From: Mya arenaria
Taxonomy: Eukaryota; Mollusca; Bivalvia; Myida; Myidae
Direction of reading: 5' to 3'
DNA length: 64,000 nucleotides
Assembly (NCBI RefSeq): GCF_026914265.1
Contig: NC_069133.1
Span: 51,225,182 to 51,289,181 of the forward strand
Shown piece after piece: positions 801 to 25,075 of this stretch (positions are counted from its first letter, which is position 1; each line of letters opens with the position of its first letter). The notes beneath the pieces were generated by a model, which saw only the letters and a program-made list of their open reading frames with translations, ran no database searches and was not told the origin of the DNA. Position numbers and translations under genes: made by a program.

Positions 801-3800
801 CTTTACATTGTTTATTTTTATCAGTACAGCAAAGCTGGTGGTGTGGTCACATCTGCATGTTACCGTAAACTCATCCTCGCCAACAACTTCACAGCCTGAC
901 ACGGACCATACTCTGAAGTGGAATTCACAGTAACGTACAAGGTACATGTAGGTAGTTGTAGGTACGTCTTAAATCTTTAGATATAAATCCAAGATATGCC
1001 CAAAAGATCTAGGGTACAAAAACATCTAAAGAAAATCTTACCATATTTAAACTTAGCTGTAAAGTTTGGAATTTTAATGTTACTTGAAAAAACAACACTA
1101 ATTCTTTAAAATGGTGTTTTCATAAAAACACACTGATGTGTCCATACTTATATTGCAGAATATAAACTAAACATAACTTTTTCAATCCGTGAAATAGAAC
1201 AAGTAAGTGATTTTTCGAATTTAAGGAAAAGTTACATTTTTAAGAAGAGCCTTCTGGAATACATATTCAGTAAGCTCTTTAGATTTCATTTCATTTTAAG
1301 ATTTGATCCAAGTGATTTGATTGGAATGTAAAAATAACTGTCGAATGAACTGAATTGAATCACTAAGGCGTGTCTAAGGATATGGAAAAGAACTCAAGAT
1401 ATCGTTTATCGCAGGTCTCGCGGAATTTTGGGTTTTGGCGAATATCCTGTTTGGGTTAAAATTCCTCCGTGAGCTTCAATATTTTATTTAAGTAACATTT
1501 AGGGATGAGACGTGGTCAAGCTATTATGCAGCAATAAAATGGCACGGGCAGAACTTTAACAATTAAACAACAACAACAACCCCTGGTTGTTTAATATTAC
1601 TTTACATGCATCAATTACTGTACAATTGCCATAAGTCTGTGTGATAAAGAAATCTCACCTCATGCTTGTATTGTAAAAGCCACAAATCAATCTGTTGTTT
1701 GTGCTGTTTCCATTTGAAAGGATCTTCGAGTCCTTAAACATAAATACGAATATAAAAAATGGCCACTGTCACAGTTCATTTAGTCTTTAGCATGGACAAC
1801 TCGAATAATAATCGACAGCAAATATGTGTACTTTTTACTTTCATTTTATTTACCCTCTTGGTTTGGTCAAAGAATTGTTTATACAACCATTGTGAGACTT
1901 TCTGAACATAAAGTTTTAGATCTTAAACTTTAATTAATCGAGCTTTGTCGGATATCTGTCTGTTTTTCATGACTGAATAGCTTTGAAGTGTCGAAACTGT
2001 TGCTCAGGTTAGATGTATACATTGCAGATGTTGGCTCTATTTGGTCGAAGAGTACCTTAACTCGGTTTATCGATTAACATGATTCTAATCATTCTTCATT
2101 GTCTTCAAGTTTCCTCCGATTATATTTGTATGATTTGGTTATGCTATTGCTGATAAATCTTTCGACATGTGTGAGATTGGGCCAATACACTAGTTTAATC
2201 CCCGTGTTTAACAGATGTGTCCCTGACTGTTCCAGTATCGTAACCCGTACATTTCCTAATGAGTGTTCTGATACATTGTCATGCCAGTGTAATATGCATA
2301 TGATGTTTGGCGGCAGTTTGTTTCTCTTGTTTAGTGTCTGTAAACCTTAACCTAATGCTTCTTACGTGTCTTTGTTGTGTTTGTTGTGCTATTTGGAGTG
2401 TCGCTTAAGTTCTTATTGTTCCATTGAAATATGTACAACTTATGCAACAACAGGCTTTTTTTTACCTGATATCTCTAGCTAGGAGATTTCACCTTAGGAA
2501 ATGGGAATAACGAATAATATAAACTGTGTGCTTTTTTAATAATAATAGAAATAAAAATATAGAAAAAATATTTTTCCATCAACCCATCACATTTAAGAAG
2601 AATTTCAAGTACAGTTTATACCTTCACATGCTCTATTAAATAAAACATGGTAAACTCCACTACGGCCGAAATCCTGACATCATTCGAGAAAACTGCCATG
2701 GTCAAAATTGGACTGGCCAGGTACACGCCCTCATCTGCAGCCCTGCAACAAAGTAATGTGGTTGATTTATAAACATTTGGCGGTAAATGAGCATACTTAT
2801 TTGACGTTGGTCCGTACTCTCTGACGTCATTACCAACATGGCTATTCAAATCATGCCTCGATGAACTTTTACCATTTCTTTCGAATATTATCAACATTTT
2901 GCTCAGCACAGGAAACGTTCCATCAGAGTTTAAAGGATCTTATGTTCGACCTCTTTTGAAAAAACAAACATTGGATCAAAACATTTAAAAAAATTATAGA
3001 CCTGTTTCAAATCTATCATTTGTATCAAAGACACTAGAAACATTAGTGAGTTCTCGCATTGATGAACACTTGACAGAAAATCAACTTCAAGAAAAACATC
3101 AGTCAGCCTATCGTAAATTCCATTCGACAGAAACTGCACTTATCAAAGTCCAAAATGATGTTCTTAAATCCCTTGACCATGGTAATGCAACCATCTTAGT
3201 AATGCTAGATCTATCGGCAGCTTTTGACACAATCGATCACAAAACTTTGTTACATAGACTTGAAAATGTGTTCGGAATCGTTGAAAAACCACTGGAATGG
3301 ATAACATCATACCTTCAAGATAGAAAACAGACAGTAAACATTGATGGGGTGCTGTTATACCCGGTCACACTGAATTTTAGTGTTCCACAGGGGTCCGTAT
3401 TAGGACCGAAATTTTATACAATGTACACTAAACCCCTTGGTGCCATTTGCAAAGAGCATGGGCTGCAATACCATCTCTACGCCGATGACTCACAGCTGTA
3501 TCTATCTTTCAAACCATTAGATGGCATTTCTAAGGAAGAAACATTACAACGCATTCAATCGTGCCTTCGAGACATAATATTATGGATGAATCTAAATATG
3601 CTCAAACTTAACACTGATAAAACAGAAGTCATCATGTTCTCATCTCCTCATAACTCCAAACACATTGAAGATCTATCTGTAACCGTCGGTGACTCGAAAG
3701 TTAAATAGTCTGTTAAAGTAAAAAAAAATAGGTGCCATCTTTGATTCAAACATGAACATGGAAGATCACGTTAATTCAGTATGCAGATCATGTTATTTAC

Positions 3801-6800
3801 ATCTTAGACAAATAGGCAGAATTCAGAAACATCTGACAGTTGATGCATCTAAACAACTTGTGACTTCATTGGTTATCTCGCGCCTAGATTACTGCAATGC
3901 ACTACTGTATGGAGTTTCTCAAACATTAGTCAACAAACATACAGCTGCCCGCATCATCACCAGAACCTTGCGGTACGATCATTTCACACCTGTACTTAAA
4001 GAACACTATTTCAAACAGGCGTATGAGTAGGATTTTTACCAGGAATGATCTGTGACAGTGATTCACAAAGAATGTGTGGCCATTATGTGATTTTAAACAT
4101 AATTTTACAACCTGTTTTATTTCTACCATGATCTTTTAGTACAGTTACATATCCTATGTAAACTGTTTTAGACTATTGATACAATATATAAATGCAATTT
4201 AGATGTCAGGCGTAAATTAATTATACTAATATAATTTTTAAATTTTTTCAAAGTTTCGCTAGACTACTTTTTATCGTATGATATTGATATTTATTGTTTT
4301 TAATTCAGACGACCAGTTAAATACCACATTTCATTTTATTGTGTTTCATATTTTTTAGTATGTTGTACATTTATAATAATTAGTCTGAGTTTGAGACTCA
4401 AAACTCCAAATATTACTTTAAATGTAAAATTGCAATATGAAAAGTAATAATGGAACAATTTTCTGCGTAAGATAAAAAAAATCTAGTTTACAGTTACATA
4501 TTTTACATTAATTTAAACACGTTTTGACAAGAACAAGTATTTAAAAGATACGTTTAAATCGTTTAAATTCGTGTTTCGGCTGTGTCTTGTACTCACCAAG
4601 TACCTCCTAGTAAGTGTTGTTTGGGACACATACACCTACCACTCCATATAAGTCACCATACTGGTAAAACTCATTATCTCGTTTAAATCACTTGCATTAT
4701 TGGACAAAATTCATTTTTTTCAACATAAACCACGTTTTCCGACCTGGTCTGGTGTAGAGTCAAGTAGGCGGAGTACCACACACCCCAAATAAGTCACCAT
4801 ACTGGGACACTTACTATGTGGTACTCCGCCTTACATTCTCTAGTGAGTAGCAGACCCAGCCGGAAAACGTTTTTTTTTTGTGACGTGTGCTTTAAGCGAG
4901 ATTTCCCAAAGCCATGACCTATATTGTCTGGCAGATGGGCGTGTCCCCTATCACACAAACACATTCTTTGCGCGTTCTTAAAGAAATGTTTTTGAGATAA
5001 ATAATAATCCAGACAAATAATGTATCCGCCGAATATATCCGCAGGCCGCAAAAAAAGTTTTCTGGCCGGAAAATAGATTCTCCCGCTGGAGATTACATTT
5101 TCCGTCCAGAAAACCTTTCATGCTGTCCGGCTAACTTTTAGCACCTCATATACTTGATGTTATTCTTCTGGGTTTTTTTTAAAGTACAAGAAAGTAAGAT
5201 TATTATTTTGCTTGAAATATAACACAGCGACTTGTACTATCATGAATACTTATTATCAGATAAAAGTGTGAGGAAATATGGGTGCTGGTCTGAAATAAAT
5301 CTGCAGCAAACGGTTCCATAAGGACGACTTTGTGCGTGATATTGGTGTATCATCAAAGGATTAAACAGACGAAAAAAAAGATACAAATATTCTTGATAGA
5401 AACATCAGTTTTGTTATTTTTTGGAAAGTCTGTATCACCACAAAACACGAATTCTTGAACAATCCGTTAAAATCTAAGACATCTCGCAACGTGTAATTTC
5501 GCACATACACACGCACGCACGAACGTACGCAGTAGTAATTGGAAATGTTTCCATCCTGTATCTTTACATCAACCGTAACACGTATCAAATTCTTTAAATA
5601 CCTCGATGGTATATGCTGTTAAAATCGTCACATAACACTTAGGGTGTCGAAATTTTCCATATGTGTTCCCAATACATTTTACCATCGTCTATATACGCCT
5701 GTACAGAGTTGCACCTAGCTGAGTTCTATTGCAAGGTTTATATCACACAAACTATCGTTAAACCAGAAAAACGTTGATCAAATTGTAAACAAGGTCATGA
5801 AAAGTGTATAAGAAAGCAGCACGGACTTTACATGTGCACATTGTTTCTTTTGAATCTCAAAAATAACTTAGGTTGAAAAGGGTTTAGGTTTTGCACAAAA
5901 TTTATACTTTATCATATGACAGGGATTAGTATTTGCTAAACATGTGCGTTTTGCTGACGCAGGGTTTGTGCCATATTTCATTTTAATAATAGTATCGTTT
6001 ATAGTAAAGCAAAATATTTACATAATTACAAAAGTCAGTGACTGCATGTGTGAAGACAACAATGCAATGGCAATAATCGGACTTATCGCATTGGTGAAAG
6101 GCTTTGAAATTATGTTGCTGTTGGCTCTATAGTGTCAAAAAATACTATTTTCGGATGTACATCTAATTTATAAACTTGACGGTTTATTTTTATGTTTTGG
6201 GTTCAGAAGGAGTTAAGTTTTATTACTCTCTTCTTCTGCTTAAATGTAGACACTTGTTATTGATCGGATTGGTTTTTTTTTCCAAAGTTATATCTAAGTA
6301 CGGTCAATCCCTAATGCAAACATAATAAAAACATAGTGGAATTGAAAATATTCAAATTAGTTAAGGATCTTTTAAAAATATATTGCTATTTGTTAAAATA
6401 TTATTCCAAAAATGGGGAATTTCAGAGGCTTTTTGGGGAAGAAAAACCACGGTCCGTCGCTTGTTTTTTAAATAAATAATTTACCTAGGTCTTCCGGTTA
6501 GCAGGATACGTCACTTAACTAAAGAATACGTGAGACTCGCAAGGGGGTTATAAGTCTCTATAGGCAATACATAACTGAAAACATATATATGTAAGGTTTT
6601 AAAAAAGGTTAAATAGTTTGCACTTAAATATTATATTTGATATGTTTTCAAAGAAATTGTTGTTGTTTTTTGTGGAGAAACTTTCATGTCAAAGCTTCAT
6701 CTTATTGGTACCTCTCACGGGCTTACCGACTTAAATATAAACCACTCAAAACGTTTCATTTCCTTTATTTCTTCGACATTAATCATTTGTCCAAACTGGG

Positions 6801-6920
6801 GTCAAACAACTATCGCCAAAGAAAGAGCACAGGTCACAAATCAGACGTGTTTTTAAAGTACAGGAAAACAGCATTTATATATTGTTCATTCAGAGATAAT
6901 ATCGAGTGAGGAATAACACA

Positions 6921-6997
<77 letters not shown>

Positions 6998-9900
6998 ATA
7001 ATATACGAATAACTTTTATTTGACAGCTCTGATAATCAAATGTTAACACTTACGTATTATCCAACGAAACAAGTTTCATAACGCTTTTGTCAAGCACTGC
7101 AGCTACCAATATTACATTTCCTGGAAGAGAAAATAGATATGTATTTTCAAAAACGTAGCAGAAATTAGAAGTTTATGAAAACTTGACCAGTTATTTTTGT
7201 AAATAATGAATCAATCTAAAATATAGTCTTATTTTGTTATATGACTTACACAAATATGGTAAACAATATTTTATATAATAAAAATAACACTCAAGTGGAA
7301 TGAAATGTGTCACATGTGCCGGAAGAAGTATTGTAATATTAAGAGTGATTGCTAAGTTAAATGTAAACGAGCATCTATTTATCTTACAAGAATCAGTACA
7401 CTGAACAAAATTTTTAAACGTCCACTTAATGAAATTCATTCAATAGAAAACTACTCAATGTATCGACTTGAAAATTGAAACGACATCGTTTTGCCTAGTA
7501 CTCTATCGATTTTTATAAAGAAAATCACACCTTAAAATTACTGTCGAGGTTAGCCATGCGAGACGATAGGTGCGATTTCCGATTTTTTGACACGAGAATT
7601 ACGAGGATTATGAAGTTATCGCTAATTTTCATGTTAACGCAAAACATGTTGAATTATCAGCTCGAAAAACAGAAAAAATGGCTAGAATGACTATTGAAGA
7701 GCGGACAAGGGCCGTCGGCATGATTGATGCAGGTACTCCGATTCGGCAGGTTTGGCCAATTTTGTAAATTAATAAATAAATTCCGATATAATGTGCGAAC
7801 TAATATAAAAAAATTGTTTAATTAAACCAATGACGCATAATAATCAATGAATTTTAGGTTGTACGGCTGTTTAATAGGCAACACTCGAGTATCCGTCAGC
7901 TGTGGGAGAAATTTAGAAGAACCGGAAGTGTTGCTGACATACACCGGAGGCCCAAACGCAGAGTAACAACTCGCCACCAAGATAGATATATGGTTCTTTC
8001 TCACCTACGCAACCGTTTCACTCCGGCTACGTCAACGGCACGGCAGACCGTTGGCACGCACAACCGGGCAATTTGCCCACAGACCGTCCGCAACCGGCTC
8101 CGGGCCATCGGTAATCGCGCCCGTCGGAAGGTTCCTGTTCTTGCTGCGGGGCACAGAGCAGCACGGCTAGCATGGGCGAGACGGAATCTACGGTTGACTA
8201 GAGCTGACTGGGCTAATGTCATTTTTGTGGATAAGACAAGACTGAAGCTCCGTGGGTCAGACGGGCGCGTATGCATTTACCGACGGAGGGGAGAGCGAAA
8301 CAGGGAATGTTTTTTGATTGACGCAGACCAGTTCGGTGGTGGTTCTGTGATGGTCTGGGCAGGAATTTCCACCCACACAAAGACTCCGATTGTCCATATC
8401 CATGGTTATTTAAATGCACTGAGGTATCAGAACGACATTATTCAACCTGTATTGATACCGCACATTCAAGCTAATCGAGGCATGATGTTGTTGCAAGACA
8501 TTGCGCCTTCAATGTCATGTTGCACGCAGAACTCAGAATATGCTGGCAACAAACAACATTCGTGTTTTAGATTTTCCGGCAAAAAGCCCAGAGCTGAATC
8601 CAATAGAAACTGTGTGGGACTTGTTAAAGAGAAAGGTTAGGGCTTTGCCCCAACAACACAATGCCGACGAAATCAGGCGTGATATTCGTCGGATGTGCGA
8701 CATTATCCCACAGAACTTCATTCACAGATATTAGGTTTCAATGAGGTCAAGGTGCCTTGCAGTTATTGCTGCAAATGGTGGACACACAAGCTACTGAATT
8801 GAACATGTTCTCCTGGACAGTTCTTTGTGACTTTCGATTTAACGAGTGACTAACTTTAACATTGTTTCTTGCAATGAATTAATAGTTCCGATGAAATTAA
8901 ATTTTATTAAAATGTTTTCAATAAATGCGTAAAACTATGTCTATTAAACAGGTTTTGTGATAATGTTATTTTATTCACATATTTTAATAGAACATATAGT
9001 GGACGTTTAGAAATTTTGTTTAGTGTATATACCTAAAGCTTAAATATGAAGTATAGTTGTAATTTACATTAGATCTTTTATTTAAAAACAAAATTGTAAC
9101 ACATTACTTGTTATTGTGTTAAATCTGATCATATAAGTTATTCAAAAAATATAAATATAACTATTCTATTGTTACTTTTTAGACATGTTAAAGCTTTAAC
9201 ATGTTCTAGCCATATTTTAAAAAACTGTCAGCCCATTCATGAGTTATTGACTGGGCAACGAATTTGCTAAATTCTAATTTGAAAAGGGGACATTACTTCG
9301 TAAAGAATTAAAGTGGTTTATTTTTTCATTTTAAAAAAATACTGAAAGGCAAGACGAATTTAACAGATTGTTTGAAAAAATGGATATTGTCTTACGTTAA
9401 ATGATCTGCAAAGCGGAATTTCAAATTCGAGTACTGAAAAAAAGTGCGCGACCAGATGTATTGTTGAAAGAATTTCTTATCAATTTGAAGTTTGAACCTT
9501 CACTTTTCTTGAAAAAACTGTTCAATAGAATTTTACACATTGGATGTTTTCCAGATATATGTTCTGAAGACCTGAGCGTGTCAAATCATAAAAAGGGGAG
9601 TATTAGTTATTTAAACAACTTAGGTATTGCACAGCTAAGAATTATTGGAACATTATAAACAATTGTAATTAACAGTGGGTTGTCAAATTGGAAAAATGTA
9701 CTCCTGAAGCACAGGCATGTTCTGGGGCTAAGTTTGGAACCACAGACAATATATTTGCCTTGCATAGACCAATAACCCATTTTATTAACCAACATTCTGC
9801 ACATTTATTGATTTTTCAAAAGCATTTGACTATATACTAAGGGAAACCCTTTGTTTTAAGATATATAGAGTTAAGCTTCAAAATGACATTCTAGGTGCAA

Positions 9901-12900
9901 TTTTGAACGTTAGCTAGGGTTAAGGCAGGATGAGGCCTTTCTCTGATTTTGTTTTCTCTTTATATGAATGATAAAGAAGATTTAGTGATTTTTCATAGGA
10001 GCTAAAAGAGGCGTTTTGGGTTATTAATTATTTTTCTGACTTTTGTACGCGATGATTTTCAATTTTGCACAATCTGCGGAGGAATTTCGATATTATCTTG
10101 ATATGTTATGCGATTTCTTAAAACAATGGAAGCTTATGGCCAATATAAATAAAACAGAAGTGATTATTTTCAGAAAAGGCTTAAGACTTCTAACAGTATA
10201 AGCATGTTTATATGATGGTAAGCCATAAATGTTGTTAAAAAATACGTATAATTTAGGAATAGATTTTACAATAGGAATATCTTTTATGCAGGCCACAAAA
10301 TCGTTAGGTGGTCAAACACAAAAGGCAACTTAAACGTTAAGAAAACATTTCGATAAATTTTCCAGTATTACTATTTATCATAAAATTGAACTGTTTGATA
10401 AACGTATGAAGCCAATAAAAATTTTATTGTATGGGTTTGAAGTTATGGCTTCCATGATTTTTATATTGTACAAATACATACGAAATTTATCAAAAGTATA
10501 GACCACAAAATGACTTTACCCTATCAGAGACGGAGATACTGGATCTTATGATGTAAAGCAAAGAATAACAGTCTGTCAAAAATTAATATGCTAGACTCAA
10601 CGATTCTTCCAGGGTCTTGTTGTATAAAACTAGTTTGATTTCCAATTTTATTCAAAATGTTTTTATATTGAAAAGTAAACTAATGCTCTAAAATTGAGAG
10701 TATCATCGCATAGGCTTAATCTTGAAACTGGGAGATGGAAAAAAAACAGACATTGTTGATAGGACTTGTCCATCATGAAACATTTTTGAAAACGAGTTTC
10801 ACTTCCTTTTTGAATGTAATTTGTGTTTCGAAATAAGACAAATATACCTCCCTAGATCTTATTGTAGAAATCCAAGCATGCTTAAAACCATTGAGCTTCT
10901 CAGGTCAATGAATGTTAATATAGTTAAAAAAACCTCGTTGTATTTGTATATAGAGCTTTTGAAATAAGCACTCAGTTCACTTTTAGACTGAGCATGTTTA
11001 TAGAAGACATTTAATTGTGCTAAATGTCTTCTGAAAACGTAATCACTATTGGCATGTCAAGCTCTAATTAAGATTTATTTTCTTTAGAATCCAGTTATTG
11101 TATTTATTACAATATGCCATATTGCGTTCATAAATACTTAATCTTCTTTATATATCAACACGTTTTATTTCCTCTCAATGATCAAGGGACATTTTGCTAT
11201 ATTTTATTGTATGTAATTATGTTGAAAGTTTGAATTGAAATAAATCAATGTCCTCCTTGAAACCAAAGTCAAAGTTGACCGACCGCAGTATTAACAAGTA
11301 TATCAAGAATAATCTAAATAGTACAACCTTTTATGAGTTATTGTCTGGACAACGCATTTTTGGCAAATTCTAACTTGTAAAGAAGTCATAAGAAGAAAAA
11401 TAGTTGGTTTGCAATGATGGTCAAACTTTACCTGTATTCTATGGGTTTCAACATGTGTTTCAAAACAAAACAAAAATAAAACAACAAACAAAACACACAC
11501 ACAAACACCGACAACAAACAAACAATCTACTACACCACAACAACAAAAAACACGCTTTGTAGTGATATAAATACAATATAGCATTCAACTTTGCTACTTG
11601 AAAAGAAATCTACCTATTGTATACATACCTGATATGTTATGACCCTGTTCGTATGTCTGAACTTTGTTTATAACACATCCAGCAACGGTACTTTCAAACA
11701 CAGTGTCTTGTTCTGGTTTTAGGTCTATGCCGGCCAATTCTACAGGTATCATTTAAAGATAAACATATGTTGTATAAACGTTCCATCCGAAATCATTTTC
11801 ATTCAAATGGTATTCCGATATCATCACGAATCTTATTCAGTATGTAAAAATATCCGCAAAGAAATTAAACAACAGTTTAGCAAGACGGTTAATACACAAC
11901 AATGACCAAAACAAAGCATATCTCATGAAGCCAATGAGCACCAGTCACTTCCATCAATGTAATCAGGCTTAATTTATTTTTTTGAACCTGGTTAATTTAA
12001 GTGAGTCAAGGCTTACAAATGTTTATTAAATAAGTTACCCGTGTCTTCTGCGGTGAGGCTAAGATAATTTCCAATGTCGACAGCATATATTACTGCGTTC
12101 AAAAGCTCTTCTAAAAAGTCCAGGACATTTATATGCTGTAATGTAGAAATGATAAAGTATGAAATTTGGTTTCAGCTCCATTTTGAAGATATCTATATAC
12201 TGATTTGCCTTTTCCTGAGGATAATAATGCAATATGAAACTACCATCTAGAAGTGAACCGATATGAAACTGCCCGTAAGTACTATACAATTATGAAACTG
12301 TCCGCCAGAATAATATGAAATGACCGCTATAACTGTACCGATATGAAACTGCCCTCTAGAACTGTACGAATATGAAACTGCCCGCCTGTATTGGACGGAT
12401 ATAAAGCTGCCCACTATCATTGTTAGAATATGAAACTGCTTGCTAGTACTGTTCGAATATGAAACTGCCCGCTAGTATTGCACGAATATGAAACTGCCTT
12501 CTAGAACAATATGATCATGACCGCTAGAACTGTACACATACCAAACTGCCGGCTAGTACTGTACGAATACGACACTGTCAGCTAGTACTGTTGGAATACG
12601 AAACTGCACACTAGTACTGTACGAATATGCAACTGCCTGCTAGTACCGTACGAATATGAAACTTCCCGCTAGTACTGTACTAATATGAAACTTCCCGCTA
12701 GTACTGTAGTAATATGAAACTGCTTGCTAGTACTGTTCAAATACCAAACTGCCTGCTATCACTCGTTCGAATATGAAACTGCCCGCTTGCGTTGAACGAA
12801 CACTTCTCAGGACAATATACACTTGAAACAATTTAAATGATAATACTTTCTTACATGATTGCACGATTGAAACGTCAGATCCTCTTGCAGCTCCGCTCTG

Positions 12901-15900
12901 ATCACAGCCAGTATATCCTGTTAGACGAAATCGAAGTACACACTTTTATTACCAGTCTTACAGCTAAACAAAAGAATACAAACACAATCATACTTCTAGC
13001 TGAGAAGCGTCTGACTTTAGAAATTGCATTCAGTGTGTGGCTTTTCACTAATATTTATGTGTCGATTTAGTATAATCTGACAAACTTATAACTAAACTGA
13101 TGTCAGTGTATCTTATTTTTCGTTTTACATTTTTATGCTATAGTTTTGGAAATATTATACACCATATTTCGATCCAGTTTAACAAGAAAAAATGCATTTT
13201 ATGCCATTTGTATACCTATAGTTATACAAGTTCAAATAATAATAAACTAAAGCAGTTTAAAATGGTAGAACAACATGCTCGTTTGTCTTTATATACTCAA
13301 CATGTTGTATTAATAAATATGGGAATATTCGTCTGCACTCTTATAATTGAGAGATTGTGATTCAGTTATGTATACCAACTACAATATGGCGAAATACAAT
13401 TTGGCTGTCGCCCCAGCATATTTATTAGTATGCGAACAAGTCTAGACACATGTTTGTTATTCTGAATTTAGTTAACGCCTACGTGCCATTATTGGACTGT
13501 TTCTAATGCAAGTTGATGCAATTATTCTGTAGTCGTACCCTTTTTAAAGATTTATGCACATACCATGATGAGCGAGGGTTTGTCGGGGAAATCTAGTGGT
13601 ATAATTCGGTCCAAGGGAATGGACTTTTGACAAAGTATTCTTGAAGAATGGATGATATATTGAATGCATTCACTTCTGGTTGTTTTGTGAGACATGAGCG
13701 AGCACTACAATAAAATAAATACTTCCATTAGATTCTGCAAAGGCCTTGTTTAAGGCGGGACAACAGCAGCTGGACAATTGAAAGGAACGCCTAGTTTTAC
13801 CCTTCTTCAGGTATCGCCCCCCCCCCCCCCCCCACAGCGCCGAAAAAAAATCAAAATAAAAAATCTAACATTCATTGGTGCCTATTATTCACGATCAGAA
13901 CTAATGTCAATATTGATCTGTCAAAGCATATTCTCCGGGGCATACTCTCTTTTTGCACAGCCCTAAAGGGGATTATAATTGCAGCCAAACCATAAACTAT
14001 GACTTTAAATGGACACTAGTATTCAGATCAGATCAGTTTTATTTGGGTGCAATACACTGTTCACCGAGTGAGCGGCAAAAGCTATATTTCACGCGTGGCG
14101 TAGCCGAGAGCAAATCATTTAATTTTGGTGTTAATGAGGTGCAATGATTTGCAATCTTACACTGAAATAAAGTTTTTTTTGTTATCATGATAGGCCTAGA
14201 AAGGCATCGAATGACAGTTAAGTAAAGTTTTCTTCAGAGACGTCTATCAAATTGTATGAGAACTTAAGATTATTTCGGCAATGACATCGTAAGACGTGTG
14301 TTCTAGTCATGTGCGCGCTGACGTTTGAATTTAGAATAGTGTGTTTGTACGACGTGATAAATACGTCATAAATGCTACGTCGGAAGGCAACATTTTGCTT
14401 AAAATGAAGACTTAAAACCAAGATAACTTTTCTTTTTCTTCAATCCTTTAAATGAAGTAAAGGGCAGTCTATTCTGCTTAAATAGCCCCACCTTCGTTTC
14501 ATTGCCGGAGTTTTATTAGGTGATTAGTTTCCTTAGACACTTCGACCTGTTTCCAAACTAATGTTTTGAAATTGCTCCATCGGGAGGAGGTTTTTTGAAA
14601 AGGTTTGTCGAAGTGTTTCCAGAAACTAATCTATCAATCAAACTTTGGTAAAAGCTATGTTTCATTTAAAATGGTGAAGAAATAGTCGTTATCTTAGTTT
14701 AAAGGCTTCATTCAAAGCAAAATATTGCCTTCCGACGTAGCATTAATGACGCAATTTATCACGTGGTATACAGACACTGGAATAGAGAGCGGGCAAAATA
14801 ATTTTTCTATACATTACGACCATCAACCTGTTCTGTTCTGTTCCTGTGTTTACCGTGTTCCATCGATGACTTGTATCGAAATGGGAAGATGCACTTCAGC
14901 TGTGGATCAACGGTCTTATACGATAATTGCGTTATTTCAAGGAATGAAAAACCAAAGCAACACACTGAATTGTATTAGGTAAAGACAATTACATTACTAA
15001 AGAGGCCTCTGCTCAGTGGATTGTTGGCCATTCTTTCATTTCCCGTGAGGTTTGAATCATGGTCTGTCAGATTTGCAGATCCTGTAAATGTAATAATGTC
15101 AACAGATGTATGTCCTCTATGTATTTCAAGCAATCAATGATATGCCATAGGCGTTTATAACAGACCTTAGGTCATTGTTCTACTCTGTTCAGAAAACAAT
15201 AGCAGTTTGTTATATTTGATTTATTTGCATGACCGAATTATCAAAAATGGGAACATTGACCCATAATACTCTGGTGTCATGATAAAAGACAACATGACCA
15301 TGTGTCCATTTTATACATACAAAACGGTACTAAACAGCAAAAACAAACTACTAGGGCATCGTACAGCCTCAACATCCTTTAGTTTGATAAAGAGATAATT
15401 GGGCCGATTATTCAGAATTTTGCTAAAAACGACGTTGTTAACGTCATATTTCTTAATTTCCAAATCCTGAAACTTCTGGAAATTGAATTAACACAGTAAG
15501 GCTTTTGATCTGCAGTGTTTCAGTTGTACTTTTGTATAAATATATTACCACATCATCAACTATTTCACGTTAATAATATTGCCGTTAATCAGGTTGTTAA
15601 GTTTTAGAAAGTCCTGAGCAATTCACTTATTATATCATAGTGTGAATACATGTGTACATGTTTATAGGTAATTAAGCTGACTCCTTTGCATTTTGAAAAA
15701 AAAAGAAGATGCAAATGTTATTCTTTTTTGAATTCATGGCATACAGATAGAACTCACAAGGGCGTATGTGTTCCACATATACGCAGATATTACGTTTAAC
15801 ATACTTGATCCGACAAAACGTCACTTGTATATCATAGAAGGGAAAACGTTGGTTGACGTTTAGCACCAGTACCTACATTTTAAAAATTCCGTTGACGTTG

Positions 15901-18900
15901 ATCGCGTAACGATACCTGCGTTTTATTACGTTTGTTGACGTTATTGGCGTAACGATACCTACATTTTAAAACGTTCGTTGGCGTGCATGGATGGCTTATC
16001 AGTACCTATGCTAGAAAACGTAGTACTACGTTGATGTTAATGGCGTAATAGTACCTACGTTTGAAAACGTTCAAAAAGTTTGAAAGTGTAACAGTAGCTT
16101 TATTTTAAACCGTTTGTTGACTTTTATGGCGCAATATTTCCTGCATTTTGAGGCGTTTGTTGACGTTGATGAAGTAACGGTCCTTTAAACGTTCGTTAAA
16201 GTTGCTGGTGTTACAGAAACACTTTAAGAAGTCCAATGACTTAAATGGCGTAAAACATTTTAAAACGTCCGTTTAGGTTGACGGCCTAGACTGTAAACGT
16301 AGTCAGTCGTATCGGAAGTCGCAAACCTACTTCATAAACATCAATGAGTGGTTATGTGAAGAACATGGCTTACAATATTAGCAATTCTTATTTTTTATGC
16401 CCCCTTTTGAAAAAAGTGGGGTATATTGTTTTGCACATGTCGGTCGGTCGGTCGGTCGGTCGGTCGGTCGGTCGGTCTGTCTGTCTGTCGGTCGGTCGGA
16501 ATACCAAATGGTTTCCGATCAATAACTTGAGAACGCTTTGACCGAGGGACCTCATACTTGGTATGTGTATTGGTCATCACCAGCAGATGAACCCTATTGA
16601 TTTTGAGGTCAGTGGGTCAAAGGTCAAGGTCAGTGTGACCTTTACATGAAAAACGGTTTCCGATCAATAACTTGAGAACGCTTTGACCCAGGAACCTCAT
16701 ACTTGGTAGGTGTATTGGTCATGACCAGCAGATGAACCCTATTGATTTTGAGGTCAGTGGGTCAAAGGTCAAGGTCAGTGTGACCTTAACATGAAAAACG
16801 GTTTCCGATCAATAACTTGAGAACGCTTTGACCCAGGGACCTCATACTAGGTAGGCTTATTGGTCATGACCAGCAGATGAACCCTATTGATTTTGAGGTC
16901 AGTGGGTCAAAGGTCAAGGTCAGTGTGACTGTAAGCTGAAAAAAGGTTTTCTGATTGTCCATATTTTATTTAAGTGTCCAAATCCTACTAACAATTTGGC
17001 TCCCAAGGGGGCATAAATGTTTCACTAACATCTCTTGTTTCTGAATGCAATGAGACATAGAGATTACGTAAATGGCCAAGACGAAAACAAGATAAATCAA
17101 TTATTGCACTGCTGACAAAATTCATAGAGTTAAGATAAATGGCAGGGGATGGGTTACTCAACCACCTATGTATAAAAAACAATGCATTAGGAAGTGTTAG
17201 GGAAAACATGATTTCCTCTAGTTTGTTGTGGTTCAACTTGCAGCGCGCCGACAATGTTGATGGTAATTTGAATCCTGCAAGGCATTAAAATGAAATTCCT
17301 CAAAAATGCACGACAATGCGTGTCCACATACTGCAAGAACTATTGGTAGTTTTCTTGCAAATGGCAACGTTAGAGGGTTAGAGTGGCCGTTATGTAATTC
17401 CGACTTTAATCCTATCGAGCCCATTTGGGACGAGATCGACACACGCATTCGTCGGCGGCCACGGTAGCGGAACGTAGCCCATCTTGAGCATGCCCTCTCC
17501 AAGATTGGGAACATTTTACTACATAGTTTTTTTTTCACAATTATGTCGTGAAATTACTCCGTTTGAACACAAACACACACAATTTGAAACAATAGGTGTT
17601 ATTTGATTTCAAATAATTCCCTCCAAAGTTTGTTAAAATCGAACTGGTGCTTATTGAGGAATTCATAAAAAGTATTAAGTGGCGGTTTGTAACTATCTAT
17701 CAGTATATTTTTATATGACATCAGCCTTCGTGAACGTTTTCGACTAAATACTGAATAATATAAAACTTGAATTTCACACCACCGACTACCTTTTAAATCC
17801 GCCTCGCAGAAGAAGGGCAGTAGTTCAGCACAGTTGGTTGGTAGCCATTCTCCTTTCCAGGTAATAGCAGCGCAGTCGTCTCCTGCGGAAATGACCTTTC
17901 ATATTAAACACAACACAGAACACCCCCTCCCCCAAACAGCACAATACTATATTGGGCCGATTGTTTAGAACTTTCTATAAGTAAACAACGCAATGATGTG
18001 CTCATATACATGTACAGTCGAACCCCGTCGGCTCGAACTTGTTTGGCTCGATTTTTCCCGTTGGCTCAAACTGGATGTTAAGCACCGATGTTTTGTATAT
18101 ATACAGTTAGCATTTTTGCTTGGCTCCAATTTCCTGAAGCTTGAAGTATTCTAGCCGGTTCCTGTAGGTTCGAGACAACGGGGTTCGACTGCAGTTTAAT
18201 ATGAACCAGTACAACTAAAACTCTCAAATCTTGTTAGAAATAGAGCATATCACAAGTATATCCATTGAACTTTCAGAACAGTTTCGTTTTGAAAGTTAAC
18301 AACGGTGACATTTACAATTTCGTTAATTTTAACAAAGCTCTGAACAATCGGGCCAAAACTTAATACAATGGGAACTACTTGGACCAGCACGGCAATCTAA
18401 CGTGTTTCACGGCACGATGATCAAGTCCCATCAGAAACGCAATAAAACAACAACGCCATGAGACAACAGACATAGATTATAACCATCTGGTCGCTCATCA
18501 AAGATAGGTTCATCCCAAGCATAGCGTAGATTGTTTTGCTGAACAATGTTTACCGAATTTCCATAGAACACTCTACGCAAGGGTCGGTATGAACCTATCT
18601 TTCAAGAAGAACAAGAAACGAGCGGCCATGGTAGAGGTTTTTCTTCAACCTCATTTAAACAAAATATAGTAAAATAGTATTTTAATTGATTAATTGATGC
18701 ATATGGGATCATTTGATTATCCTTGCCCATGTGCAAGATAAAGATTTTCAGTATGGCCAAATATTTGGATCTACATGTACCTAGCTTGGATAAGAGAATA
18801 CGTAAATATCAACATATCGCTATCATAATTTTTTGAAACGGCCTTAATTTCAAATAAATAATTGAAAGAGAAATTTCAAGACCACACTACCGCGAAGCAC

Positions 18901-21399
18901 CATGCCAACGGTCACGATTTCGATATTATAATGCATGTTGTAATATAATGTATAAAAAACGACACAATCGACTAGAAATAAATGCCGTTTAATATATTAA
19001 ATTAAGATTTTAAAAATATGTAATTTATACATTTTATAAACATTTGTTCACTTTCATTACCCCGGATTAGGTTAGAAAAGGGCCAATTGAAATGATAAGC
19101 TTATAGTTTAATTGTTAAAAACTACTTCTATTTTTTCTATACATTCAAGCTTTCTAGTAGCCTCGTATATTACATTTAGCCATGGTCTGGATTTGTTTAC
19201 CGAGTGTGTAGTTGGCATCCTTCAGAAGACCAAAGGAAGATGTTGGGTCGTCCGTCCATACCCAGTCACTCTCCTGGAAGGCATGGACACAAGATAATAT
19301 AAACTGATCATTATAAAGTCTTTTACCCCAGATTTCACACTTTTCTGAACAAGTTTTATGAAGGTTTCATAAAAACTATTGAATTTATTACATGGGGAAA
19401 ATACTTCCTAAAATTTGATCAAGTGACCTAGTTTTAAAACTGAGGTGACACATATACAAAAATGTTCAAGACAACATGTAGACAATCAATCTGACACAGT
19501 CTCATAGCAATTGAATAATCAATCAATCAATCAATCAAATCTTTATTTCCTCCTATACAGAAGATATGCAAATATATTTACAAAGTGTAAAGTGCTCTAA
19601 CATTGAGCAATATAGAACAAGTTAACACAATAAACAGGGAAAACGTATCTAACATAATTATATATAATATGTATACATTTAGTTACACATATGTACATTG
19701 GATGCTTTTGTTTTTAGGTTTTGTATTCTATTTTTTTCATCTTATAACGGGTCCACATTGTTATTTGAGCTAGCGATTTAATTAGTGATTATAAACATAG
19801 CTTTGATGAGTATAATAACAGGTATGTATAAGAAAACGATGCATGCATTGTATACAAGTATTGCTGTGTAATCACCCTAACGAAACAGAACAAGAGGCTT
19901 TTACGTAACATGTTTCTATACTGTTCGGTTTATCTGTGACCGTAGATAAGTTGAGGTAAAAGTGATTATGATTATGGTCATAATCGGTAGTTGATTAGCA
20001 ACCAAGCTACGGTTATTATGATAAGCGCTATTAAATGTCGCTTCAACAAACTCTAGTCAAAGTATGCACGTTTACACCGTAATGTATAATTGTATGAACA
20101 TTGCAGAAGTAGAGCGTTGTTGTCCGTGTCTATAAAAGGTTCTAAAGGTGCTCCGAGAAGTCACAGAGTCCATTGTATTTGTTCTAAGTTATTTAAGCTT
20201 TCATAGTCATGTCCATTCAAAATAGTATTCATTTGGGTAGTAAAGTCTTTTGTAATTGCCAATGTGTGGTAATACTCGCTTAATATATGTACAAGCTCTT
20301 CCTGAAAGGTAAAGTTACACTTAGCACAATGTCTGTTTCGTAAAATCGAAGGTCTGCACCACAATTTTGCTATTATCCTTGCTGTGTGACGAAAACTACT
20401 TTTTCTTGAAATAGTATACATAATAGTAGGTTGTAAATATGGATGAAGAATACGAAATAACATAAAATCGCAATCATTGGAAGTACGGATATCCCAGCAT
20501 AACTTGCATTTAAGTATAACAGCATTATTAACCATGCGTGTCCAAGTTTGTTTATCTTGGGTGGCTCTTTCTACGGAGAAGTAGCTATTTAGCACAAATT
20601 GCATGTTGTATTTGGTCAACAGCTTACATATATCTGGTATAAATCCTCGTTTGATTGAGTTGTTATCAAGAATGTAAGAAATATATTTTCTCACAAAAAT
20701 TTGTTCGCTTATACATTTGTTTGGAAGCATTAACAACTTGTGTAAGAACATCAGTTTTCTTTTTTCGACGTAGGTATCTAACTTATTTAATCCTAGAATA
20801 GATTCCGACATATCCGATTTGGTAGAGATAGGCAGTCCTTGTATCTTTTTGTCTACGAAGTGTTGGAGACGGTTGATGGCTAAGGTGTCAACGTTAGTCA
20901 TTTAGTTCCAGAGTTCGGAGCCGTAGAGAGCAATGGGAATTATTCTGACAAAGTTTCACTGCAATTGGATAAAACCTATATACTTTATGACATGGAATAA
21001 AACTGAAACGCAGAATTGTAACGCCCGTCAGCCCGCCTGGTTTTCGCCATTCCATAACCCGTTAAAACCGCCTTAGTCCTCCAATTAAAACAGTGATTAT
21101 AAAACTGTCTTAGACCTCCAATGACAATAGTGTTTTTAAAAAACTGTCTTAGACGTCTAAACGAATATAATAGTTACATACATTCTTATAGAATCCAATC
21201 CAGTGCGTGCTGTTGAAGTTAAAAGGCCTCATATTTAGGATTAACGTCTGCTCTGCGATGTCATTCAGGTTCACGAGATAACCGTTGTCATGGCTGCACG
21301 ACGCCGAGGCTCGTTGCCAGGAGACAGCTGTGCTGTTGACATGGTAACAACGGCTTTTCTCAATCAGCCATGTCTTTTCACATCTCTTTGTACTCAGTC
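801..21399 (-). CDS. Adhesion-GPCR-like receptor gene with C-type lectin, GAIN and GPS domains (partial, multi-exon)
   Basis: This is my reconstruction of a split minus-strand gene. Exons in transcription order are 21182-21399, 19201-19273 and 17790-17882 (C-type lectin domain), possibly 13564-13704, then 12039-12135, 11629-11739, 7054-7120, 2622-2742 and 1659-1732 (GAIN domain), and about 807-912 (GPS). All junctions within the lectin block, and all from 12135 down to 807, agree in phase, and most sites are canonical AG/GT. The link between the lectin block (exit phase 1) and the GAIN block needs at least one exon I did not find. The start, any signal peptide and the 7TM segment are also not seen; the 7TM should lie left of position 800. 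In known adhesion GPCRs the GAIN domain self-cleaves at the GPS and leaves the extracellular fragment tethered. A lectin domain in front suggests glycan or protein binding outside the cell. Two separate genes (a lectin and a GPCR) remain possible. Confidence 0.72.
807..912 (-). CDS. GPS exon 2 (GPCR autoproteolysis site)
   Basis: After the acceptor CCACTTCAG|A the frame reads WSVSGCEVV, then VTCRCDHTTSFAVL. This is the core of a GPS motif: W, GC, CxC, His two before the cleavage Thr, then F-A-V-L. Known sites are usually H-L-T or H-L-S; here H-T-T keeps the essential His and Thr, so self-cleavage is plausible. Two donors are possible (GTAAAG ending the exon at 807, or GTCAGG ending it at 801). 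The first transmembrane exon would come next and is not recognisable in bases 1-800. Confidence 0.78.
1659..1732 (-). CDS. GPS exon 1 (first GPS cysteine)
   Basis: This exon has 74 bases: 24 codons plus AG. The acceptor is ATGTTTAAG|GAC and the donor ATGAG|GTGAGA. It reads NGNSTNNRLICGFYNTSM, giving the first GPS cysteine and the aromatic 'C-x-F-Y/W-N' motif. The AG joins A of the next exon to make Arg. Two N-glycosylation sequons (NST, NTS) are visible. Confidence 0.75.
2622..2742 (-). CDS. GAIN subdomain B exon (penultimate strands)
   Basis: This exon has 121 bases: 1 + 40 codons. The acceptor is TTTGTTGCAG|G and the donor GTGAAG|GTATAA. The peptide includes VYLASPILTMAVFSNDV and VEFTMFYLIEHVK, matching the 'V-x-S-P-V' strand and the final 'F-T-hydrophobic-H' strand of GAIN domains. 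It exits in phase 0 into the exon at 1659-1732. A LINE fragment begins only about 60 bases upstream in the gene, inside the intron. Confidence 0.8.
2803..4030 (+). pseudogene. Non-LTR retrotransposon (LINE) reverse transcriptase fragment, broken
   Basis: The plus strand encodes the RT core of a LINE. It starts in the region preceding the fingers (PTWLFKSCLDELLPF), then NYRPVSNLSFVSK, LDLSAAFDTIDH, VPQGSVLGP, and the catalytic box YADDSQLY near 3479. An in-frame stop at about 2986 and a one-base frameshift near 3710-3730 break the frame. The C-terminal part (RLDYCNALLYG, HTAARIITRT) continues to 4030 with a short internal loss. The endonuclease part is missing, so this is a 5'-truncated dead copy. 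It sits in an intron of the minus-strand receptor gene. Confidence 0.88.
4131..6921. other. Receptor intron; little recognisable content
   Basis: This is AT-rich intronic sequence. The only structure I noticed is a 15-base perfect inverted repeat (AGGCGGAGTACCACA) at 4766-4780 and 4817-4831, and a loosely related CACC/ACTGG segment at 4640-4660. There is no supportable coding exon. Confidence 0.4.
6922..6997. repeat. (AT)n/(AC)n dinucleotide microsatellite
   Basis: About 60 bases of AT repeat run directly into a short ACACAC tract. The apparent Tyr-Ile-rich reading frame across it is only the repeat translated. Confidence 0.95.
7054..7120 (-). CDS. GAIN subdomain B exon (beta strand)
   Basis: This exon has 67 bases with a strong acceptor (CTCTTCCAG|GA) and donor (ATAC|GTAAGT). 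Only one of its three frames is open, reading NVILVAAVLDKSVMKLVS. That is the hydrophobic strand and loop seen just before the last third of GAIN domains. Both phases fit: G|GA upstream and AC|G downstream. Confidence 0.78.
7399..9025 (+). mobile_element. Tc1-like DNA transposon, nearly complete, with 28-bp TIRs and TA target site
   Basis: The left end at 7399-7426 (CACTGAACAAAAT...) and the right end at 8998-9025 are inverted copies agreeing at 26 of 28 positions. Each is flanked by TA (7397-7398 and 9026-9027), the target duplication of the Tc1/mariner superfamily. The 1,627-bp length is normal for that group. The transposase gene inside is in plus orientation. The element lies in an intron of the minus-strand receptor gene. 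Confidence 0.9.
7678..8734 (+). pseudogene. Tc1-like transposase, frameshifted, with an intron-like 108-bp gap
   Basis: The frame starts at ATG 7678 (MARMTIEERTRAVGMIDAG), breaks at 7750, and resumes at 7858 in exact register (VRLFNRQHSSIRQLWEKF, a helix-turn-helix). The gap 7750-7857 begins GT and ends TTTTAG. The DDE catalytic part follows: VIFVDKTRLK (first D), LLQDIAPS (second D), then a +1 frameshift around 8501-8520, then DFPAKSPELNPIETVWDLL (third acidic residue). The end FIHRY and stop lie at 8734. The frameshift makes it inactive as it stands. The Tc1 family cuts and pastes its own element at TA sites. Confidence 0.9.
9340..10970 (+). pseudogene. Highly decayed LINE, RT to C-terminus
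   Basis: Broken frames line up in order with a non-LTR RT: SARPDVLLKEFL and LFNRILHIGCFPDI (9420-9560), FIDFSKAF-like remnant near 9820, VRQ-like remnant near 9920, CDFLKQWKLMANINKTEV (about 10110-10160), FIYDGKP and LGIDFT (10205-10270), and at the 3' end ETGRWKK and FENEFHFLFECN (10725-10815), ending near 10968. Many stops and frameshifts show it is old. It is a different lineage from the LINE at 2803-4030. Confidence 0.75.
11629..11739 (-). CDS. GAIN domain exon
   Basis: This exon has 111 bases: 2 + 36 codons + 1. The acceptor is CCTGTAG|AA and the donor ATATCAG|GTATGT, a near-perfect donor. The peptide runs LAGIDLKPEQDTVFES and ends GHNIS, resembling the early beta strands of GAIN. Both flanking phases match neighbouring exons. 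The acceptor lies at 11740-11741. Confidence 0.75.
12039..12135 (-). CDS. GAIN subdomain A exon
   Basis: This exon has 97 bases, 32 codons plus one. The acceptor is ACATTACAG|CAT and the donor ACGG|GTAACT. It encodes an amphipathic helix (VLDFLEELLNAVIYAVD) followed by YLSLTAEDTEL, the pattern of helix then edge strand found in the A part of GAIN domains. The single trailing G joins AA of the next exon to make Glu. Confidence 0.75.
12228..12805. repeat. Diverged minisatellite, about 36-bp unit
   Basis: About 16 units share the core AATATGAAACTGCCCGCTAG followed by TACTGTACG. Copies differ at many positions, so the array is old. It lies just upstream (in gene sense) of the GAIN exon at 12039-12135. 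Confidence 0.9.
13564..13704 (-). CDS. Candidate linker exon before the GAIN domain
   Basis: This is a 141-base stretch with a good acceptor (TTTATTGTAG|TG) and donor (ATCATG|GTATGT). Frame 1 is open throughout (47 codons) and exits in phase 0, as the GAIN exon at 12039-12135 requires. The second frame is open for 37 codons, reads more like ordinary protein (SILQEYFVKSPFPW), then hits a stop. I cannot tell whether frame 1 is right or a frameshift separates the two. It does not join directly to the lectin exon at 17790. Confidence 0.38.
14325..14790. mobile_element. Foldback or MITE-like element with about 110-bp inverted arms
   Basis: Bases from about 14330 to 14440 reappear inverted at about 14670-14785. 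Both arms share GCTACGTCGGAAGGCAA and CACGTGATAAAT-like segments. A second inner inverted pair contains ATTAGTTTC and ACACTTCGAC (about 14523-14546 and 14606-14630). No protein is encoded. Ends and target duplication are not clear. Confidence 0.6.
15850..16285. repeat. Strongly diverged tandem repeat, roughly 65-bp unit
   Basis: Successive segments repeat the pattern 'GTTGACGTT ... GGCGTAACGATACCTACATTTTAAAACGTT'. About six or seven units are recognisable. Divergence makes the exact period uncertain. Confidence 0.65.
16396..17015. mobile_element. Non-autonomous TIR element with (GGTC)n and three 145-bp repeats
   Basis: The ends are inverted: TATGCCCCCTT at 16396 and AAGGGGGCATA ending 17015, 13 bases if flanking T/A are counted. 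Inside are a GGTC/TGTC microsatellite (16439-16498) and three near-identical repeats starting at 16510, 16655 and 16800. Each repeat ends with the same AGGTCA-rich stretch (see findings). No coding frame. I recall similar sequences scattered in bivalve genomes; a library search would settle the family. Confidence 0.8.
17250..17535 (+). pseudogene. Tc1/mariner transposase C-terminal remnant
   Basis: The plus strand reads MHDNACPHTARTIG (second catalytic D in the usual 'DNARPHTA' motif), then LEWPLCNSDFNPIEPIWDEI (third acidic residue in 'NPIE-WDE') and a few Arg-rich residues before a stop near 17466. A decayed 'GNLN' segment precedes it. This is a dead fragment, clearly from another Tc1/mariner lineage than the copy at 7.4-9.0 kb. 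Confidence 0.85.
17790..17882 (-). CDS. CTLD exon 3 (C-terminal end of C-type lectin domain)
   Basis: This exon has 93 bases: 2 + 30 codons + 1. The acceptor is TTTCCGCAG|GA and the donor AAAAG|GTAGTC. It supplies the last three cysteines of the fold in DDCAAI, TNCAEL and FFCEAD, with a tryptophan in GEWLP where classical lectins carry WND. The missing D argues against the usual calcium-dependent sugar site. It leaves in phase 1, so the next exon must start with two bases; that exon was not found between 13.7 and 17.8 kb. Confidence 0.8.
18015..18191. mobile_element. MITE-like element, 177 bp
   Basis: CAGTCGAACCCCGT at 18015 is the reverse complement of ACGGGGTTCGACTG ending at 18191. The interior has the degenerate alternating words GGCTCGA and GGCTC. 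No coding potential. Confidence 0.7.
18499..18603. repeat. Inverted repeat around AAAGATAGGTTCAT
   Basis: AAAGATAGGTTCAT followed by GCGTAGA-type sequence at about 18499-18530 is inverted at about 18572-18603. The arms are about 30 bases with a few mismatches. It may be a small MITE or the end of a larger one. Confidence 0.5.
19201..19273 (-). CDS. CTLD exon 2 (middle of C-type lectin domain)
   Basis: This exon has 73 bases: 24 codons plus one base. The acceptor is CCTTCCAG|GAG and the donor CTCG|GTAAAC. The peptide ESDWVWTDDPTSSFG follows directly on WIGFYKN of the previous exon and matches the usual 'W-W-T-D-G' stretch of lectin folds. The EPN or QPD calcium and sugar-binding triplet of classical lectins is not visible, so binding may be unconventional. 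Confidence 0.8.
19512..20945 (-). mobile_element. 5'-truncated LINE with 3' tetranucleotide tail
   Basis: On the minus strand a LINE C-terminal coding part (20161-20945) is followed by about 600 bases of 3' UTR and ends in a run of GATT/ATTG units at 19512-19537, the usual 3' tail type of many mollusc LINEs. The tail fixes the insertion's 3' edge. It lies in the intron between lectin exons 1 and 2. Confidence 0.8.
20161..20945 (-). pseudogene. LINE ORF2 C-terminal fragment
   Basis: The frame of 246 codons from ATG 20901 contains RLQHFVDKKIQGLP, ILGLNKLDTYVEKRKLMFLHKLL and a cysteine motif (HCAKCNFTFQEELVHIL), which form the usual C-terminal region after the RT of this LINE group. Just upstream, in frame, is YGSELWN followed by a stop and then the ATG, so the open frame is a remnant and not a gene with its own start. 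The RT core itself is missing. Confidence 0.82.
21182..21399 (-). CDS. CTLD exon 1 (N-terminal half of C-type lectin domain)
   Basis: This exon has 218 bases, two to finish a codon plus 72 codons. It starts after a TAAGTAG acceptor and ends at AAT|GTATGT. Read on the minus strand it has the start of a long-form C-type lectin fold: a first cysteine pair (CEKTW and RCYHV), then SWQRASASC with the conserved W, A and C, then GYLVNL, and the hallmark WIGFY. Exit is in phase 0, matching the exon at 19201-19273. The true start could be a few bases different because two AG dinucleotides lie close together. Confidence 0.8.
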
Positions 21400-22139: not shown

Positions 22140-22905
22140 ACGACATTACGAATATACGCCGGGTGGCCGGGCGATAAACGACAATACGAACATACGCCAG
22201 GTGGCCGGGCGATAAACGACAATACGAACATACGCCGGGTGGCTGGGCGATAAACGACAATACGAACATACGCCGGGTGGCTGGGCGGTAAACGACAATA
22301 CGAAGATACGCCGGGTGGCCGGGCGATAAACGACAATACGAACATACGCCAGGTGGCCGGGCGATACACGACAATACGAACATACGCCGGGTGGCTTGGC
22401 GATAAACGACAATACGAACATACGCCGGGTGGCCGGGCGATAAACGACAATACGAACATAGGCCTGTTGGCCGGGCGATAAACGACAATACGAACATAGG
22501 CCGGGTGGCCGGGCGATAAACGACAATACAAACATAGGCCGGGTGGCTCGGCGATAAACGACAATACGAACATACGCCGGGTGGCTGGGCGATAAACGAC
22601 AATACGAACATAGGCCGGGTGGCAGGGCGATAAACGACAATACGAACATAGGCCGGGTGGCAGGGCGATAAACGACAATACGAAAATAGGCCGGGTGGCA
22701 GGGCGATAAACGACAATACGAACATAGGCCGGGTGGCCGGGCGATAAACGACTATACGAACATAGGCCGGGTGGCCGGGGGATAAACGACAATACGAACA
22801 TAGGCCGGGTGGCCGGGGGATAAACGACAATACGAACATAGGTCGGGTGACAGGGCGATAAACGACAAAACGAACATAGGCCGGGCGATAAACGACAAAA
22901 CAACA
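22140..22905. repeat. 38-bp minisatellite, about 20 units
   Basis: The GC-rich unit runs GCCGGGTGGCCGGGCGATAA then ACGACAATACGAACATAC. Units are highly alike. Because 38 is not a multiple of three and none of the minus-strand frames meets a stop, long spurious frames (up to 274 codons) run through all three minus frames. Confidence 0.95.
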
Positions 22906-24239: not shown

Positions 24240-25075
24240 TTACTTTTGACATTTATTTATGTTTGTTTATTTATTTATTTGTTTGTTGATTCGTTCGTTC
24301 GTTCGTTCGTTCGCTCGCTCGCTCGCTGGTTCCTTCCTTCCTTCCTTCCTTCCTTCCTTCCTTCCTTCCTTCCTTCCTTCCTTCCTTCCTTCCTTCCTTC
24401 CTTCCTTCCTTCCTTCCTTCCTTCCTTCCTTCCTTCCTTCCTTCCTTCCTTCCTTCCTTCCTTCCTTCCTTCCTTCCTCCCTCCCTCCCTCCCTCCCTCC
24501 CTCCCTCCCTCCCTCCCTCCCTCCCTCCCTCCCTCCCTCCCTTCCTTCCTTCCTTCCTTCCTTCCTTCCTTCCTTCCTTCCTTCCTTCCTTCCTTCCTTC
24601 CTTCCTTCCTTCCTTCCTTCCTTCCTTCCTTCCTTCCTTCCTTCCTTCCTTCCTTCCTTCCTTCCTTCCTTCCTTCCTTCTTTCCTTCCTTCCTTCCTTC
24701 TTTCCTTCCTTCATTCATTCCTTCATTCATTCATTCATTCATTCATTCATTCATTCATTCCTTCATTCATTCCTTCCTTCCTTCCTTCCTTCATTCATTC
24801 ATTCATTCATTCATTCATTCATTCATTCATTCATTCATTCATTCATTCATTCATTCATTCATTCATTCATTCATTCATTCATTCATTCCTTCCTTCCTTC
24901 ATTCCTTCATTCCTTCATTCATTCATTCATTCATTCATTCATTCATTCATTCATTCATTCATTCATTCATTCATTCATCATTCATCATTCATTCCTTCAT
25001 TCCTTCATTCATTCATTCATTCATTCATCCATCCATCCATTCATTCCTTAATTCATCCATCCATCCATCCAAACC
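24240..25075. repeat. Compound tetranucleotide microsatellite
   Basis: The tract runs (TTTA)n, (GTTC)n, (GCTC)n, then a long (TTCC)n, a (TCCC)n block at 24478-24540, (TTCC)n again, (ATTC)n mixed with TTCC, and ends in (ATCC)n. Four-base blocks translate as Ser-Phe-Leu-Pro and Ser-Phe-Ile-His runs, and as Arg-Lys-Glu-Gly on the other strand. None of these is a gene. Confidence 0.97.

Follow-up and report, generated by a model that had tools for sequence, protein, structure and literature searches.

The window, by which we mean the whole 64,000-nucleotide stretch of Mya arenaria DNA analysed here, holds on its minus strand a series of 12 small exons, running from 21399 to 801, that encode a C-type lectin domain, a GPS motif and a sequence resembling a tethered agonist. 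Judging from these ectodomain exons alone, we consider it quite likely that they form the outer part of an adhesion GPCR with a C-type lectin-like domain, the membrane part of which would lie left of base 1, beyond the window. The gene is real and looks ordinary, and it probably adds a new member to a type of receptor that is already known.

Gene model

The exons were marked by eye on the minus strand of positions 23000 to 1, and their frames, phases and splice sites were then derived by script. AG or GT stands at each exon edge inside the gene, all 11 junctions are in phase, and the spliced reading comprises 419 codons without a stop. The exons, all on the minus strand, are as follows.

Exon 1, 21182..21399, minus: first half of the C-type lectin-like domain; phase 1 in, 0 out; one of three frames open; PF00059 at 2e-6 on its own
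Exon 2, 19201..19273, minus: lectin core (WVWTDD); phase 0 in, 1 out; one open frame; in the NCBI model
Exon 3, 17790..17882, minus: lectin end with the last three cysteines; phase 1 in, 1 out; one open frame; in the NCBI model
Exon 4, 14993..15081, minus: linker with N-glycosylation sequons; phase 1 in, 0 out; one open frame; in the NCBI model
Exon 5, 13564..13704, minus: possibly optional linker of 141 bases, entered and left in phase 0; in the NCBI model
Exon 6, 12855..12917, minus: presumed GAIN subdomain A; phase 0 in and out; two open frames; in the NCBI model
Exon 7, 12039..12135, minus: presumed GAIN subdomain A helix (NVLDFLEELLNAV); phase 0 in, 1 out
Exon 8, 11629..11739, minus: presumed GAIN; phase 1 in, 1 out; one open frame; absent from the NCBI model
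Exon 9, 7054..7120, minus: 67 bases, presumed GAIN subdomain B; phase 1 in, 2 out; sole open frame is the required one
Exon 10, 2622..2742, minus: presumed GAIN subdomain B strands (SPILTMAVFSNDVRISAVVEFT); phase 2 in, 0 out; shares one alignment to ADGRL3 with the GPS
Exon 11, 1659..1732, minus: first part of the GPS motif (ICGFYNTSM); 74 bases, phase 0 in, 2 out
Exon 12, 801..912, minus: rest of the GPS (PF01825), HTT cleavage tripeptide and tethered-agonist-like TSFAVLI; phase 2 in, 0 out

A single frame is open in 10 of the 12 exons, two frames being open in exons 6 and 11, and the assigned frame has the top leave-one-out codon score in 11 of the 12, with codon statistics taken from no more than two further frames in the window and the remaining exons. 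The exception is exon 5, which scores negative in all three frames and by this measure looks non-coding; skipping it also keeps exon 4 in frame with exon 6 and leaves 372 codons. Frame 1 of exon 5 is more protein-like by eye and was rejected, having a stop inside and fitting no neighbour, and frame 0 was kept because the NCBI model uses it. Splice-site strength is mixed across the exons, several sites being weak on the rough consensus score that we used. The acceptors of exon 1 (-2.7) and exon 8 (-2.5) lie slightly above the window median of -3.0; exon 11 has an acceptor of -1.6 and a donor of 6.5, which exceeds the 99th percentile of all GT sites (4.1), and exon 12 has an acceptor (at 912) of 1.5 and a donor of 4.0.

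An earlier sequence-only reading had placed a receptor gene between 21399 and 801, and these end points are indeed the bases at which lectin exon 1 starts and the GPS exon ends. Its nine minus-strand exons, for which it gave no coordinates, we infer to be exons 1-3 and 7-12, and exons 4-6 now connect the lectin block (exons 1-3) to the block formed by exons 7-12. All seven junctions whose phases it had reported to fit, two in the lectin block and five in the GAIN/GPS block, do so, and its further observations, an acceptor and a donor for every exon and a single open frame, the required one, in the 67-base exon (7120-7054), agree with our model, in which AG and GT bound all 12 exons. Scans upstream gave no convincing signal-peptide or start exon and no further strong exons, and by eye no open segment of 800-1 on the minus strand resembled a transmembrane exon.

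The lectin-like domain

The peptide joined from exons 1-3 matches the Pfam family Lectin_C (PF00059) with an E-value of 8.9e-15 and 55.8 bits, against a cut-off of 22.6, which bears out the C-type lectin domain of the sequence-only reading; exons 2-3 alone reach 0.0017, below the cut-off. When compared with the PDB, this peptide finds 113 sequences at E ≤ 0.001, and among the best 60 of these 113 the multi-lectin receptors lead, for example lymphocyte antigen 75. It contains six cysteines, the number found in the long form of the C-type lectin-like domain. The calcium-sugar motifs of sugar-binding C-type lectins, EPN/QPD and WND, are absent, and the clam peptide reads WVWTDDPTSSFGLLKDANYTLGDDC and GEWLPTNC; a protein ligand is therefore likelier than a calcium-dependent sugar.

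The GPS and the putative tethered agonist

Exons 11-12 match the GPS family (PF01825) with an E-value of 4.9e-13 and 49.8 bits over profile positions 2-45 of 45, and the encoded peptide has four cysteines. Compared with the PDB, the 62-residue GPS peptide finds 89 sequences at E ≤ 10, and all 14 with E ≤ 0.0052 are adhesion GPCRs (best ADGRF1, 2.1e-6), a comparison that is lopsided against the polycystins because the PDB, to our knowledge, holds no polycystin GPS. The weaker matches within the best 60 of the 89 are mostly WD-repeat proteins, with a few adhesion GPCRs. The GPS of the sequence-only reading and its affinity to adhesion GPCRs are both supported.

The right split of these exons was found through a scan for filler exons, which gave seven candidates for the acceptor at 912 and nine for one at 967. 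The top candidate for the former, 1732-1659, completes the GPS, raising its score from 41.1 to 49.8 bits and its coverage from profile positions 15-45 to 2-45 of 45; the top candidate for the latter is a 31-base exon at 1636-1606. A start of the GPS exon at 967 was rejected: it would have to be entered in phase 1 although the preceding exon leaves in phase 0, an in-frame stop lies just upstream, and its acceptor score of -4.9 falls below the window median. A frameshift or pseudogene at the GPS exon had been considered first, and was resolved by exon 1732-1659 together with the 912 acceptor. As a control we generated 2000 artificial introns that matched the real one in first-order composition, redrawn for each donor threshold, and counted those with a right-phase filler carrying a C-x-aromatic-like pattern at the right distance; there were 48, 26, 0 and 1 of 2000 at donor scores of at least -2.5, 0, 4.1 and 6.4, respectively, numbers that are a rough guide since the pattern was chosen post hoc, with the real exon already seen, and acceptor strength was ignored.

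The GAIN domain of the sequence-only reading fared less evenly. No Pfam profile recognises it in any version of the exon peptide scanned, so that the profile search which that reading had proposed for the spliced peptide succeeded for the C-type lectin and the GPS and failed for the GAIN; the sole support on the GAIN side comes from the PDB, where exons 6-12 align with ADGRL3 at 2.2e-6 over residues 111-210, a stretch that takes in the GPS and the final GAIN strands. Adhesion GPCRs make up 16 of the 17 matches of exons 6-12 in that database at E ≤ 10, and exons 6-10 without the GPS find nothing relevant there, the single match having an E-value of 1.2. The GAIN domain is described in review literature as highly variable in sequence. 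The assignment of exons 6-10 to a presumed GAIN fold therefore draws on their position, the strand alignment and this high variability. Sub-threshold Pfam matches to UL45 (0.0034 and weaker) and to DrsE_2 and DUF6664 (0.027 and weaker) were not used.

Review passages also state that many adhesion GPCRs, though not all, cleave themselves at the GAIN, typically at a tripeptide His-Leu/Ile-Ser/Thr, and that their tethered agonist has the consensus TxFxxLM. At the clam cut site, CDHTTSFAVLIK, H occupies P-2, and T occupies both P-1, where L or I is typical, and P+1, making a His-Thr-Thr that departs from the cleavage tripeptide; the agonist stretch TSFAVLI has the T, F and L of the consensus and ends in I instead of M. 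With T at P-1 and a TSFAVLI that lies mostly on the consensus, the agonist thus seems largely kept, while the cut may be weak. Since not all adhesion GPCRs cleave, HTT bears on cleavage and not on family membership, and CELSR1, one of the PDB matches, has HSA at the tripeptide position, so other members also depart at the cleavage site. In ADGRF1 and ADGRL3 (e.g. PDB 7wu3 and 6vhh) the GPS cysteines, the tryptophan and the post-cut T-x-F-x-x-L align with the clam peptide, the cut site being HLT in these two receptors and HTT in the clam.

Public annotation

The gene is already annotated, in truncated and misread form. The entry is the 213-residue 'uncharacterized' Mya arenaria protein of NCBI LOC128210774, presumably the RefSeq model, which was the sole match at E ≤ 0.001 when an early 365-residue query was compared with about 5.8 billion proteins, and which we could rebuild letter for letter from the window; this identifies the DNA as Mya arenaria and agrees with the mollusc origin assumed in the sequence-only reading. 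It starts with a 60-base piece of exon 1 (21342-21283), read in another frame and ending at the donor GTTATC, continues through exons 2-6 exactly as in our model, with five junctions (2/3 to 6/7) in agreement, and then reads through the exon 7 donor to a stop ending at 12013, without exons 8-12. Its lectin score of 17.9 bits (E 0.0052) is below the Pfam cut-off. The 12-exon model is better than the public one at the lectin and the GPS ends. The sequence-only reading had called the gene hidden and expected annotation to miss it, which is not so in that LOC128210774 spans exons 1-7, but holds to the extent that this model is truncated, has exon 1 out of frame and goes under 'uncharacterized'. 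The case shows that raw clam DNA can suffice for reading a receptor ectodomain at a locus for which public data offer a fragment of 213 residues whose lectin score does not pass.

Among candidates of about 200-640 and 410-1320 residues we found no annotated protein with the GPS exon, using queries in which the first GPS residues were wrong and the last 37 residues right. Queries lengthened with X returned no full-length relative at E ≤ 10 (921 GAIN/GPS and 33 lectin candidates), a result that says little about the absence of relatives because the GPS part of the GAIN/GPS query began with incorrect residues and a strict word filter applied. According to the genome report, the Mya arenaria assembly was built from PacBio contigs with Hi-C scaffolding and 10x polishing, and its annotation was aided by RNA-seq; clam RNA-seq data of the project are under BioProject PRJNA874712 (PMC10663159).

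Alternative explanations

A gene of the polycystin-1 type (PKD1/REJ) would likewise have both a GPS and a C-type lectin domain ahead of its first transmembrane helix, to be followed by a PLAT domain and up to 11 helices, and its membrane part would also lie beyond the window. In this family C-type lectin domains occur in SpREJ1-3, human PKD1 and PKD1L2, and a GPS in all sea urchin and human members except SpREJ10, upstream of the membrane part as in the clam (PMC1934368). We regard this origin as improbable. Against it stands the sequence behind the cut: the clam TSFAVLI is near the adhesion-GPCR consensus, whereas the polycystin junctions given in one construct table read HLTAFGA and HLTFFSS (PMC7728438). 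Moreover, Pfam finds no REJ or PKD repeats in the 12 exons, and what the GPS peptide finds in the PDB at E ≤ 0.0052 are adhesion GPCRs, in the lopsided comparison described above. An open segment at 120-1 on the minus strand, which begins MHFQFYINPDDVFNVIILLRVGNVPSQKRRRRR and runs off the window edge, resembles a polycystin stretch; this reading of it was dropped. The segment has no Pfam or PDB match, and by eye the one upstream AG that gives the right frame leaves an in-frame TGA.

The locus might instead be decaying or encode no receptor, being either a pseudogene or the source of a short lectin-like transcript that ends after exon 7, as could be suggested by the NCBI model, which ends by reading through the exon 7 donor and of which we found no longer version, by the poor codon score of exon 5 and by the start exon missing from the upstream scans. 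Against this stand 12 exons with 419 stop-free codons and AG/GT at the edges inside the gene, and the six lectin and four GPS cysteines, all of them kept, so that we give this explanation little credence. That the NCBI model covers exons 1-7 only would also suit two adjoining genes, a lectin gene made of these exons and a separate GAIN/GPS gene made of exons 8-12. This we hold to be very improbable, given that the phases of exons 7 and 8 fit at their junction, that the reading of exon 8 has no methionine and that helices resembling GAIN subdomain A are seen by eye in exons 6-7.

Relation to known receptors and possible mechanism

We know of no C-type lectin in ADGRF1 or ADGRL3, of which the latter carries a rhamnose-type lectin, a different fold. 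A parallel is found in amphioxus, from which a 2008 report described C-type lectin domains as a novelty among adhesion GPCRs; the lectin stands there at the N terminus, and many of the amphioxus members of the family have a GPS (PMC2246102). Amphioxus is a chordate, however, and the likeness is one of domain description, with the clam receptor known from its ectodomain exons. One table of a 2014 survey lists Lectin_C among the N-terminal domains of a 7tm_2 group (PMC8687355), and in a Ciona survey the one lectin passage concerns vertebrate receptors. Among the papers listed by searches towards mollusc, bivalve or invertebrate cases, none describes such a case in its title or the start of its abstract, from which we do not claim absence from print. 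A mollusc candidate would now join the amphioxus receptors and help to address whether bilaterians acquired the combination early or more than once; being a single gene, it leaves the general picture unchanged.

If the exons do belong to an adhesion GPCR, the lectin-like head would most likely bind a ligand on a neighbouring cell, the matrix or a microbe, and ligand binding or pull would loosen the grip of the GAIN/GPS on the TSFAVLIK strand. This strand could then act as a tethered agonist on the predicted seven-transmembrane part, and G-protein signalling would follow. One could also speculate that the head has lost calcium-sugar binding and that HTT cleaves poorly or never, such that the agonist would become exposed while the head stays attached, and that the receptor belongs to a bivalve lineage without close annotated relatives; taken as one joint reading, this is tentative and on balance rather unlikely.

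Surroundings in the window

Two frames on the plus strand lie within introns of the receptor gene, a reverse transcriptase frame at 3046-3708 (PF00078, 2.6e-22) and a Tc3-type transposase frame at 7990-8640 (PF01498, 8.4e-9), while the intron between exons 1 and 2 contains a 246-residue minus-strand frame (20161-20901) without a Pfam match, which gives the impression of being possibly a transposable-element end. Between exons 6 and 7 there is a diverged 29-base minisatellite of 19.6 copies (12231-12787). A 38-base minisatellite, also of 19.6 copies and with 93% matches, lies about 0.7 kb upstream of exon 1 (22140-22885), and the three long minus-strand frames inside it look spurious. It is followed by a TTCC array of about 180 copies (24330-25049), with long low-complexity frames on both strands. 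Farther along, the minus strand carries a sodium:solute symporter at 54005-55762 (PF00474, 4.8e-40), whose uninterrupted frame of 585 codons contrasts with the finely split receptor gene. On the plus strand, two cytochrome P450 frames (36232-37062 and 43986-44963) are identical at 267 of 276 residues and, from this similarity, look like a recent tandem duplication.
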